Of a stretch of 21,755 bases of DNA, positions 4,587 to 18,430 are shown piece by piece (position 1 is the stretch's first letter; every line of letters starts with the position of its first letter). Made by a program: the position numbers and the translations under genes. The stretch lies in the IMG/VR virus record IMGVR_UViG_3300023235_000155, positions 1 through 21,755 of that record. One strand, written 5' to 3'. The notes under the pieces were generated by a model. The model searched no databases. It had not been told where the DNA came from and saw only the letters and a list, made by a program, of their open reading frames with translations. This stretch comes from a virus.

Positions 4587-4708
4587 TGAAAAGAAATAAA
4601 TTAGAAAGAAAACTAGATGAATACAACCACACAATGGAATTGATTAGAACTATAATTCCAGTTGCGATACTATGTCTTCAGGTAGTTATATTGGCAAAAC
4701 TTATATGA
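4586..4708 (+). CDS. 40-residue single-pass membrane protein
   Basis: The start overlaps the previous stop (TAATG) and the stop overlaps the next start (ATGA). The sequence has a charged N-terminal half (MKRNKLERKLDEYNHTMEL) and a hydrophobic segment (TIIPVAILCLQVVILAKLI) reaching the C terminus. It is likely a cytoplasmic-side-anchored micro-membrane-protein. The tight packing on both sides is the best evidence that it is real. Function unknown; a holin-like or superinfection role would be guesswork. Confidence 0.7.
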   Translation: MKRNKLERKLDEYNHTMELIRTIIPVAILCLQVVILAKLI

Positions 4709-5006: not shown

Positions 5007-5375
5007 ATGACTTCAATGATTTATACTAAAAATTCAAGTGGCGCCATTCGTAGATTACAAAGAAAAAAACCTACCAAGAGTTATCTCTCAGCATTAATAG
5101 ATCACATTAAATTTCTAAAAAGTTTAGGTTTCAAGTTTGATTCAAAAGGTAAAATGAAGCGTAGATATAAAAAATCTGCCCCTTTAGCTCATTCGGTAGA
5201 GCAGCTGATTTGTAATCAGCAGGTGGTCTGTTCAAATCGGACAAGGGGCACCACTACTATACCATCAAACAACTGGCGACTACAAGAGTCCAGAAAGTTT
5301 ACAATCGCCCCAGCATATAACAAAGGCGGTTATCAAGTTATATCAAAAGAAAATATTAAGAACATAGGTAAATGA
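5007..5375 (+). CDS. Open frame containing an in-frame tRNA gene
   Basis: A 122-codon frame. Codons 1-57 give a basic segment (MTSMIYTKNSSGAIRRLQRK, then SALIDHIKFLKSLGFKF). Codons 58-83 are simply the translated tRNA-Thr gene at 5178-5253. The last ~39 codons again look like protein (TIPSNNW, then RKFTIAPAYNKGGYQVI). There is no ATG, GTG or TTG between the tRNA and the stop, so that C-terminal domain can only be made by reading through the tRNA. Either the tRNA invaded a real gene without breaking the frame, or the real gene ends early and the tail is a remnant. Transcription probably begins at the start codon, from the promoter at 4972-5000. Function unknown. Confidence 0.6.
   Translation: MTSMIYTKNSSGAIRRLQRKKPTKSYLSALIDHIKFLKSLGFKFDSKGKMKRRYKKSAPLAHSVEQLICNQQVVCSNRTRGTTTIPSNNWRLQESRKFTIAPAYNKGGYQVISKENIKNIGK
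5178..5253 (+). tRNA. tRNA-Thr (anticodon TGT)
   Basis: A complete 76-base cloverleaf: acceptor GCCCCTT/AAGGGGC, D arm GCTC/GAGC, anticodon stem GCTGA/TCAGC with loop TTTGTAA (anticodon TGT at 5211-5213), T arm GTCTG/CGGAC with loop TTCAAAT, and an encoded terminal ACCA. It would read ACA, the threonine codon favoured by AT-rich phage genes. It lies in the same direction as, and wholly inside, the open frame 5007-5375, so it must be excised from that transcript. Confidence 0.97.
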
Positions 5376-15197: not shown

Positions 15198-15914
15198 ATG
15201 AATACATTAAACGAATATTTTAAAAAGAACCATCAACCTAAAACCTTTACTCACAAATCAGTAGAGAAACAACCAGATTTACCAACAAAAACTATTAAGG
15301 GTAAAAGATTTTATGTTTTACCTAATGGTCAAGAACTACCCTCGATAACAACTGTATTATCGGCAAGAGGTAATGAAGGTATCGCCAGATGGCGTGCTTC
15401 AGTAGGTGAACAAGTTGCGAATACTATTATGAGGAATGCGGCTAGCAGAGGCACAGCCGTTCATACACTAACAGAAAACTACCTTAACAACGAAGAACTA
15501 TCACAACAAGGAGTGTTGCCTACGGCATTATTTACTATTCTAAAAGGTGAATTGGATAAGATAAATAATATAGTAATGCAAGAAGGATCTCTTTACAGCG
15601 ATAAATGGGGTGTTGCAGGTAGAGTTGATTGTATTGCAGAATATGATGGTAAGTTATCCGTAATAGATTTTAAAACATCTACTAAAGATAAAAAAGAAGA
15701 ATGGGTAGAAAACTACTTTATTCAAACTTCTGCTTATTGTGAAATGTTTGAAGAACGATATGGCAAATCAATAGATCAGATTGTTATATTGATTGTAACC
15801 GAAGAAGGTTCAACACAAACTTTTGTTAAAGATAAGAAAGACTACTTACCCCTATTAAAACCGGCTATAGAGGAGTTTCATAAGAAATTTAAAGAAGATG
15901 GGAAAACTAATTAA
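15198..15914 (+). CDS. PD-(D/E)XK exonuclease (RecB/MGME1-like)
   Basis: The 238-residue product has the RecB-type nuclease motifs in order. LPSITTVLSARG (48-59) and RGTAVHTLTENYL (84-96, first conserved helix with His89 and Glu93) come first. GRVDCIAEYDG (141-151, Asp144) and SVIDFKTS (154-161, catalytic Asp157 and Lys159) follow, then IQTSAYCEMFEERYG with the Q-x-x-x-Y motif. This layout resembles single-strand DNA exonucleases of the MGME1/Cas4 group found in T4-like phages. It probably processes DNA during replication, recombination or host degradation. The mRNA appears leaderless. Its end overlaps the next gene by 17 bases. Confidence 0.88.
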   Translation: MNTLNEYFKKNHQPKTFTHKSVEKQPDLPTKTIKGKRFYVLPNGQELPSITTVLSARGNEGIARWRASVGEQVANTIMRNAASRGTAVHTLTENYLNNEELSQQGVLPTALFTILKGELDKINNIVMQEGSLYSDKWGVAGRVDCIAEYDGKLSVIDFKTSTKDKKEEWVENYFIQTSAYCEMFEERYGKSIDQIVILIVTEEGSTQTFVKDKKDYLPLLKPAIEEFHKKFKEDGKTN

Positions 15915-16269
15915 AACTATATGTGGATTATTTTTTATATTATGTTTATCCAGTAAGTCATATGCAGGACCAGAGGGTTTACAAAAATATCCTTGGACAC
16001 TACAACAAGCACCAATATGGTGTGGACCTTTAGATGTAGTTAATCAAGCATTAAAAAATGAAGGTTATGTTGAGATAGAAATAGCAGTTGGTAGAACAGC
16101 AGCATTACCAACAGGTGATGTCGTTTATGCTGTAATAACTTATGTGTCAACAGATACACCAGGAAATATTATAAGAACAATGGAAACACCTGCTCAACAA
16201 GAGAAGTGTATATTGAATGTGTTATTTGATTATACGGTTGTTGAAACACCAGCACCGAAAACGAATTAA
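15898..16269 (+). CDS. Secreted protein of unknown family
   Basis: The 123-residue product starts inside the end of the exonuclease gene. It has a Sec signal peptide (MGKLIKTICGLFFILCLSSK, cut likely after SYA before GPEG). The mature protein keeps two cysteines (IWCGPLD, EKCILN) and a beta-rich centre (YVEIEIAVGRTAALPTGDVV), ending in a Pro/Thr tail. No family recognised. The permuted tmRNA gene follows after about 15-20 bases. Similar exported unknowns sit at 4257, 5836 and 19518. Confidence 0.82.
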   Translation: MGKLIKTICGLFFILCLSSKSYAGPEGLQKYPWTLQQAPIWCGPLDVVNQALKNEGYVEIEIAVGRTAALPTGDVVYAVITYVSTDTPGNIIRTMETPAQQEKCILNVLFDYTVVETPAPKTN

Positions 16270-16284
16270 TTGTTGATAAGAAGA

Positions 16285-16497
16285 CAATAACTTTTAGGGA
16301 CCTGGGTGCGATACCCAGCCACTCCACCATTCTAACAATGAAATTAGAGGGGTGGAAATAGGATCGACCATTAGGTAAAACTTCTAGGAGATTGATCGCT
16401 AACACCGTACTGTTATTTAAATGCTGACTCACAAGGTTTCGCATTAGCGGCTTAGGTCGTTAGGGGTTTGCCTGTACCTCGCAACAGAAACAGGCAC
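16285..16497 (+). ncRNA. ssrA: Permuted two-piece tmRNA with tag ADSQGFALAA
   Basis: The acceptor piece comes first: T arm CTGGG/CCCAG (16302-16318), acceptor strand CCACTCC (16319-16325) and ACCA (16326-16329). A 19-base spacer follows. The coding piece then begins GGGGTGG (16349-16355), pairing with the acceptor strand (one G-T), and has the tmRNA-like D region GGATCGACC (16361-16369). A tag frame starts at the Ala codon 16423 and reads ADSQGFALAA before TAG (16453-16455); ALAA is the classic degradation end. A TGCCTGT/ACAGGCA hairpin (16469-16496) follows. The order acceptor-spacer-coding is the alphaproteobacterial, circularly permuted arrangement. The RNA would rescue stalled ribosomes during infection and tag the peptides. 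The outer ends are approximate: I could not fix the long P2 helix or a promoter. Confidence 0.9.
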
Positions 16498-16505
16498 TAT
16501 AAATT

Positions 16506-17051
16506 ATGAATAACTATATACAAATATATAAAAATGCAATAGATGATGAGTACTGTGATGAACTTATTACTAAGTTTAATATTGACTCTAAACAAGAGAC
16601 CTACGATCAAGGTCCTATGTCTTTCACACAAGTTAATCTCAATCAAAATAAATGGAAAGGTGATATAACTAAACTATCATCTGTATTCACAAAATATCTT
16701 GATCAATATAAGAATGATTGTATCATAACAGATCAAATGTGGCCGGATAAATATGCCTTTGAAGAAATAAGATTAAAGAAGTATTTACCTAATGATAAAG
16801 ATCGTTTTGATCCTCATGTAGATTCTATCAATATTGAATCGGCAAAGAGATTTCTAGTATTCTTTATATATCTGCAAGATAATGCTAGAGGGGAAACTAA
16901 CTTTCCTCAATTAGGATTGGCGTCACCTTGTAAAAAAGGTTCACTACTAATGTTCCCACCATTATGGCCGTGGTTACATCAAGGCATGAAACCAATTGAT
17001 GAACCAAAGTATATAATTGGTAGTTATTTACATTATACGCTTGACAATTAG
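16506..17051 (+). CDS. 2-oxoglutarate/Fe(II)-dependent oxygenase
   Basis: The 181-residue product has the double-stranded beta-helix iron site: His104 and Asp106 in FDPHVDS, and His158 in PWLHQG. It also has the typical GETNFPQ (129-135) and KKGSLLMFPP (143-152), as in prolyl-4-hydroxylase-type enzymes. It would hydroxylate a protein, sugar or small molecule using 2-oxoglutarate and oxygen; the substrate is unknown. Similar enzymes are common in marine T4-like phages. It lies immediately after the tmRNA; a TATAAATT directly before its ATG could be a weak late promoter. The next promoter's -35 overlaps its last codons. Confidence 0.9.
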   Translation: MNNYIQIYKNAIDDEYCDELITKFNIDSKQETYDQGPMSFTQVNLNQNKWKGDITKLSSVFTKYLDQYKNDCIITDQMWPDKYAFEEIRLKKYLPNDKDRFDPHVDSINIESAKRFLVFFIYLQDNARGETNFPQLGLASPCKKGSLLMFPPLWPWLHQGMKPIDEPKYIIGSYLHYTLDN

Positions 17052-17069
17052 TGATGGATATAGTATAAT
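17041..17069 (+). promoter_or_regulatory. Consensus early promoter abutting the gp33 start
   Basis: TTGACA (17041-17046), 17-base spacer, TATAAT (17064-17069). The ATG at 17076 is exactly seven bases past the -10 box, again placing the predicted start on the start codon. Confidence 0.88.
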
Positions 17070-17075
17070 AAACAT

Positions 17076-17303
17076 ATGACAGATACAATATTAACACCTA
17101 ATAAGTTTGCTTTAATTGTAGAAAATATAGTTAAGGATAAGAAAATTAGTTATATAGACGCAATTTTAGACTATTGTACTGATAACGAGATTGATCCTGC
17201 AAATACCAGATCAATGATAAATAAAACATTAAAAGAAAAGATAACATATGAGGCACAGAACCTTAATATGTTAAAAGAAAAGGTGGCAAAACTACCTATT
17301 TAA
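17076..17303 (+). CDS. 33: Late-transcription coactivator (T4 gp33-like)
   Basis: A 75-residue protein with SYIDAILDYCTDNEIDPANT in the centre, then MINKTLKEKITYEAQNLNML and LPI at the end. This matches my memory of gp33 of marine T4-like phages, the small protein that bridges RNA polymerase and the sliding clamp to activate late promoters. It fits the presence of several exact TATAAATA late promoters in this window. It is transcribed from an early, apparently leaderless promoter, sensible for a factor needed before late transcription. Assignment rests on pattern similarity, since T4 gp33 itself is longer and divergent. Confidence 0.78.
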   Translation: MTDTILTPNKFALIVENIVKDKKISYIDAILDYCTDNEIDPANTRSMINKTLKEKITYEAQNLNMLKEKVAKLPI

Positions 17304-17818: not shown

Positions 17819-18430
17819 GTGAATGGTTTTGAAGTATATAAAAAATATCTTGCGATCAAGCTTCATTTCACAAGTAAGAACCAGAGTTATGACTTCCATA
17901 AACACGCTGGGCGGACAACAGCAAGGTTGGATACATTTACTAAAAGACGGGATAGGTATTTTTTTCACAAGCTTAGTAGAGCTTATAGCGATACTGATAT
18001 TATTGATTACTTTATCAGTAATTTTGTTTCTAATACTAATCTTTGGATTGGGGATATTATTGGTAGATCAGGTGATGATAACTATAAAGCGTGGTCAAAA
18101 AAAATAGAAGCACTACATTATTACTATGAACAAGATATAGATTATATACTCGGCAAGATAACAAAGAAGATAACTTTTGATGATTTGTTTACTTCTAAAG
18201 ATGGTCAACACCCACCAATACTTAAATTTGTATTGGCGAAGAAGATAAACTTTGAAACATTTTTAATATTAGATGATATATTAAGATTTTCAAAAAGACT
18301 AAACAAAGACATAGGTGAGAAAGTATTATGGCCGAAACTGTGTGATAGAATGGTGAGATATAAACCTTTCTTATCATATAATATAACAAAGTATAAGATG
18401 ACACTAAAGAATAAAATAAAGGATATGTAA
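17819..18430 (+). CDS. 59: DNA helicase loader (T4 gp59-like)
   Basis: A 203-residue protein using a GTG start two bases after the peroxiredoxin stop, with AAAGG in front. It follows T4 gp59: VYKKYLAIKLHF near the start, KRRDRYFFHKLSRAYSD, IIDYFISNFVSNTNLWIGDI, then KIEALHYYYEQDI and KINFETFLILDDILRFSKRL. gp59 loads the gp41 helicase at forks covered by gp32, so it works with the gp32 encoded at 19806. Length is close to T4 gp59 (217). A 94-codon frame in another phase inside it is a shadow. Confidence 0.92.
   Translation: MNGFEVYKKYLAIKLHFTSKNQSYDFHKHAGRTTARLDTFTKRRDRYFFHKLSRAYSDTDIIDYFISNFVSNTNLWIGDIIGRSGDDNYKAWSKKIEALHYYYEQDIDYILGKITKKITFDDLFTSKDGQHPPILKFVLAKKINFETFLILDDILRFSKRLNKDIGEKVLWPKLCDRMVRYKPFLSYNITKYKMTLKNKIKDM

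Follow-up and report, generated by a model that had tools for sequence, protein, structure and literature searches.

The window, by which we mean the whole stretch of 21,755 nucleotides of viral DNA analyzed here, comes from a T4-like relative of the pelagimyophages, and its genes include those for ribonucleotide reductase, T4-like exonucleases, an ssDNA-binding protein, an endolysin, and a 2OG oxygenase. Positions 16265–16498 (+ strand) constitute a circularly permuted tmRNA gene of the alphaproteobacterial type; tmRNA is the bacterial RNA that releases stalled ribosomes and marks their incomplete proteins for degradation. The gene has the neighbors originally described, a signal-peptide-like small protein upstream (15898–16269, judged by eye) and a 2OG-Fe(II) oxygenase (16506–17051, phrog_61) downstream, followed by a gp33-like late-promoter regulator (17076–17303, phrog_254) and a gp59-like helicase loader (17819–18430, phrog_269). 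The closest named relatives at the locus are Pelagibacter phages HTVC008M and Mosig and Methylophilales phage Melnitz, all of which carry the tmRNA between the exonuclease and the gp33-like gene, and the conserved block, i.e., exonuclease, small protein, tmRNA, (2OG oxygenase), gp33-like late regulator, (peroxiredoxin), and gp59, has the same order in these three phages and in dozens of contigs. A promoter scan of the window returned as many matches as chance predicts, none of which stood out upstream of the tmRNA. A perfect sigma-70 consensus (TTGACA, 17 nt, TATAAT) is present at 17041–17069, at the end of the 2OG oxygenase gene and directly before the gp33-like regulator. Elsewhere in the window, a tRNA-Thr(UGU) gene (5178–5253) lies inside a same-strand ORF (5007–5375) that is probably not a real gene over that stretch.

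Covariance models, covariation, synteny, and retention in nearly all relatives bear out the original prediction that the phage encodes a permuted two-piece tmRNA with a tag of its own. In the covariance search proposed with that prediction, two Rfam models for permuted tmRNA matched the window over their full lengths and above their curated gathering thresholds: RF04321 (77.6 bits, gathering 47, E 1.3e-13) and RF01849 (alpha_tmRNA; 74.9 bits, gathering 50, E 5.2e-19). ARAGORN likewise called a permuted tmRNA with the tag ADSQGFALAA. The RF04321 score is lower than those of SAR11 copies (123–146 bits). The span first given, 16285–16497, begins about 20 bases too late, as the 5′ strand of P2 starts at ∼16265 and overlaps the stop codon (16267–16269) of the upstream ORF; the RF01849 match stops at 16498. 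From the RF04321 and RF01849 alignments, ARAGORN, and P2 pairing, the acceptor piece (the 3′ tRNA-like part, ending in ACCA) occupies 16265–16329, its mature 5′ end being approximate. Between its CCA and the 5′ strand of the acceptor lies an intervening segment of 19 nt (16330–16348), variable in length and sequence among relatives and presumed to be removed in processing. The coding piece (16349–16498, from the RF01849 match) then comprises the 5′ tRNA-like part, the 3′ strand of P2, the tag frame, and the terminal pseudoknot.

The permuted order is evident from the acceptor stem, the 3′ strand of which (CCACUCC, discriminator A, and CCA; 16319–16329) lies upstream of its 5′ strand (GGGGUGG; 16349–16355); the predicted coordinates were exact, and all seven pairs form, including a G3-U70 wobble, with A73 adjoining. 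All seven pairs, G3-U70, and A73 were kept in 112 of 112 scorable distinct virus sequences despite several acceptor variants, and although G3 and U70 were partly fixed by the search pattern used for the IMG/VR tmRNA set, they were not imposed in the set retrieved by way of the exonuclease, where these alanine identity elements are also found. The acceptor stem was fully paired in each of 66 distinct pelagimyophage sequences. Covariance alignment places a T arm, conserved among relatives, at 16302–16318 (CUGGG/CCCAG with the 7-nt loop UGCGAUA), and a D-loop-like segment at 16356–16368, AAAUAGGAUCGAC, is nearly invariant in phage and host.

P2 joins the two pieces. Its outer helix (AUUAAUU, 16265–16271, with GAUUGAU, 16390–16396) was assigned by alignment with relatives in which the same helix is predicted, and its middle helix (UAAGAAG with one bulged A, 16277–16283, with CUUCUA, 16381–16386) by a double change from G-C to A-U in one relative, L232 (UAAAAAG/CUUUUA). 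When strands were permuted among clades, the original partners proved the better match (summed energy −200.8 vs −148.4±9.5 for exchanged partners), and 0 of 20,000 permutations did as well. Taken alone, the P2 strands of the window form a weak duplex: the inner P2 is interrupted by a 3×3 mismatch loop, pairing without constraints favors a duplex other than the phylogenetic one, and of 18 foreign partners, 3 pair equally well. The assignment in the window is thus based on comparison with relatives, including the double change in L232. At the 3′ end, an alpha-type terminal pseudoknot (16463–16495) is formed by GGGGU (16463–16467) with ACCUC (16476–16480) and by GCCUGU (16470–16475) with ACAGGC (16490–16495); against the latter stem, relatives have GCCAGU/ACUGGC, GUGGAGU/ACUCCAC, and GUGGAUUGU/ACAAUCCAC. 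P2 therefore covaries and the pseudoknot is kept by compensatory changes, these being the pairings whose absence the original prediction had named as evidence against itself. By eye, AGCGGC UUAG GUCGUU could form a hairpin around the stop codon, but this hairpin was not significant in a permutation test (7,812 of 20,000) and hence is not claimed.

The tag frame, supported by ARAGORN and by codon comparison, starts at the predicted Ala codon at 16423 and ends with UAG at 16455 (GCT GAC TCA CAA GGT TTC GCA TTA GCG GCT TAG, encoding ADSQGFALAA). A resume consensus is present and the hydrophobic, degron-like C-terminus is conserved. The gene shows signs of purifying selection, and variation in the last four codons of the phage tags is mainly at third positions, with ALAA, AIAA, or AMAA kept. 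The comparison with SAR11 tags that had been suggested drew on tmRNAs matched in 119 of 137 genomes of an order identified as SAR11 from genome size, GC, and proteorhodopsin: these tags are different and 9 aa long (e.g., ANESYALAA, ANNKLALAA, and ANDELALAA), and none was common to SAR11 and the set of 33 pelagimyophage loci. The phage tag nevertheless keeps the [FY]ALAA end seen in Pelagibacter (SYALAA, KFALAA) and should therefore feed the same protease, so the earlier suggestion that the phage RNA might redirect tagging finds no support. Some phage tags begin with a codon other than alanine, an unusual resume codon (ENFNSFSLAA and ENFNSYSLAA in L216–L219, L252, and L253; GEDNFALAA in Mosig, L197), and in another group of viral contigs (L042, L050, L061, L073, and L084) the tmRNA lies near a ribonucleotide reductase gene (nrdB) and has a very long tag of 29–31 aa.

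Retention was assessed in 80 viral loci fetched by their exonuclease alone, which avoids selection by the tmRNA itself. Twelve of these were too short to judge; 67 of the remaining 68 carried a tmRNA, which ARAGORN found just downstream of the exonuclease in 65 and which was read by eye in the other two (L252 and L253) because they carry a variant that ARAGORN missed. One close relative (L246) has cleanly lost the gene, which is thus not indispensable. A relic of an integration site was ruled out, since the gene is complete and, in many phages, surrounded by replication genes.

A 2022 study (PMC9004378) described two-piece tmRNAs in pelagimyophages and in Melnitz; of its 133 unique phage tmRNAs, 53 had such a structure, 50 of these originating from phages of marine or aquatic habitats, and the authors discussed what roles they might have. 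The tmRNA in the window is therefore another example of a published type. Added here are the retention rate, the covariation, an unannotated copy in HTVC008M, the separation from bacterial ssrA, and probable tag exchange. Mosig (whose record carries an SsrA feature), Melnitz, and the pelagimyophage MAGs of that study resemble the window in being T4-like marine phages with an alpha-type permuted tmRNA in the interval from the exonuclease to the gp33-like gene, but their tags are ANDNYVPVDYALAA or GEDNFALAA rather than ADSQGFALAA, and the window has a 2OG oxygenase between the tmRNA and gp33. The HTVC008M gene (KC465899.1:145161-145370; RF04321, 90.6 bits) is permuted, lacks a GenBank annotation, and has the same neighbors as that of the window, from which it differs by its tag (ANFNEYALAA) and a longer intervening segment. 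Melnitz also has a glutamine riboswitch (RF01739, 52.8 bits; L196:4615-4663) just downstream of its tmRNA and outside the 3′ domain of the latter, the RF01849 match ending at 4607; the ARAGORN end at 4653 includes fixed padding. Contrary to the reading in PMC9004378, this riboswitch more likely controls a downstream gene than the tmRNA. Unlike Melnitz, the window yielded no glutamine riboswitch at E≤1 in an Rfam search.

As to the origin of the gene, its description as host-derived holds only for the type of RNA, which is alphaproteobacterial. In an unrooted tree of 140 tmRNAs, built without betaproteobacterial and cyanobacterial sequences, all 68 bacterial-type sequences (48 SAR11, 19 other alphaproteobacteria, and one viral contig) fell on one side of a branch with 100/100 support, apart from the pelagimyophage tmRNAs; the latter cluster with 93% bootstrap but an SH-aLRT of 0. 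SAR11 ssrA shares with the window the permutation, G3-U70, the terminal motif GCAACAGAA, and a tag ending in ALAA/AIAA, whereas it differs in its 9-aa tags, an acceptor that is always GGGGGTG/CACCTCC, an extra segment after the stop codon, and its separate clade. When genome contigs were scanned for the exact acceptor of the window, only Puniceibacterium and no SAR11 was found, and a plasmid search gave no matches. Because ssrA is a common integration site and the RNA is of alphaproteobacterial type, the gene could in principle be a passenger captured recently from a SAR11 host, e.g., by imprecise excision, a route suggested in PMC9004378. However, it occupies the same position in many diverged phages, is kept in 67 of 68 loci, shares no tag with SAR11 in the 33-locus set, and lies outside the sampled bacterial clade, so it was not copied recently from a SAR11 gene; we regard such a capture as highly improbable. 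In AU tests, a grouping of pelagimyophages with all sampled alphaproteobacteria was rejected (p 0.007) and one with SAR11 was not (p 0.08), so an old origin from the SAR11 stem is conceivable. Any inference about origin is tentative because of long branches and mosaicism.

That mosaicism extends to the tag. In two separate contigs (L250 and L251), a tmRNA with a phage backbone and the same syntenic position carries a tag identical to ANESYALAA of Pelagibacter; their tag segment is 83–88% identical to Pelagibacter-type ssrA over 41–54 nt, and their 5′ part matches that of phage L248, a pattern that points to probable recombination, i.e., tag exchange, with a host gene. L252 and L253 resemble L216–L219 in tag type and P2 but differ in the T arm, acceptor, and linker, and the tRNA-like part thus seems to have been exchanged as a module between phage tmRNAs. 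It is conceivable, although we put it forward tentatively, that marine T4-like phages maintain a nearly obligatory tmRNA lineage of their own, distinct from those of living alphaproteobacteria, with swapping of modules (tRNA-like part, tag, and pseudoknot) and occasional import of a host tag.

As to function, we favor, with a probability of about 0.82, the reading that the locus is a functional phage ssrA which, served by the host, carries out ribosome rescue and tagging during nuclease attack. SmpB (PF01668) was found in two SAR11 genomes and in 0 of 12 virus records, including three complete isolate genomes, so host SmpB would have to serve the phage tmRNA; host AlaRS, EF-Tu, RNase P, and ClpXP would act on it by analogy with known tmRNAs. 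We infer the transcription, processing, charging, rescue activity, and timing of the window tmRNA as follows. The transcript is probably made jointly with the upstream exonuclease and small-protein genes, and host tRNA-processing enzymes would trim it to two RNAs that stay paired through the acceptor stem and P2. Its alanine would be supplied by host AlaRS via G3-U70, and with host SmpB and EF-Tu it would enter ribosomes stalled on broken or nonstop mRNAs, where Ala-ADSQGFALAA would be added before translation ended at its UAG and the ribosome was freed. Through its [FY]ALAA end, the tagged fragment would go to host ClpXP. The phage probably gains in that ribosome rescue continues as its nucleases cut up the DNA and mRNA of the host.

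Two other functions deserve consideration. Since tmRNA acts on stalled ribosomes, it tags nascent chains rather than the standing proteome, which argues against a main role in breaking down host proteins and recycling amino acids at an early stage of infection, as does the lack of a promoter above chance upstream of the tmRNA in the window. The tag does look degradable and the phage relies on host resources, and just such a role was proposed for Melnitz (PMC9004378), but we consider it very unlikely to be the main one here. The RNA might instead be a decoy or inhibitor that competes for SmpB or ribosomes, or that steers tagging away from phage proteins, given that it has diverged from the host form and has a different and longer tag; a precedent is phage DS6A (PMC11915505), another phage-borne relative, whose tmRNA has no coding sequence and, on expression in E. 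coli, is reported to inhibit the endogenous tmRNA. In contrast to DS6A, the window has an intact tag frame, the end of which is degron-like and conserved, with synonymous variation at third positions among the phage tags; these features argue for a working tag and make a decoy improbable.

Phage tmRNAs have mostly been viewed as curiosities or as relics of integration. The retention in 67 of 68 loci, the synteny, and the covariation instead indicate strong selection on the tmRNA gene in one abundant group of ocean phages. If the phages do maintain a tmRNA lineage of their own, the finding of a phage backbone with a host tag suggests selection that keeps phage tagging readable by the proteolytic machinery of the host, and the apparent exchange of host tags offers a naturally occurring test of which residues of the tag are important in SAR11. 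With host SmpB and a phage tmRNA acting together, ribosomes may stay available for use as mRNA is broken down, which is a testable point about the infection.
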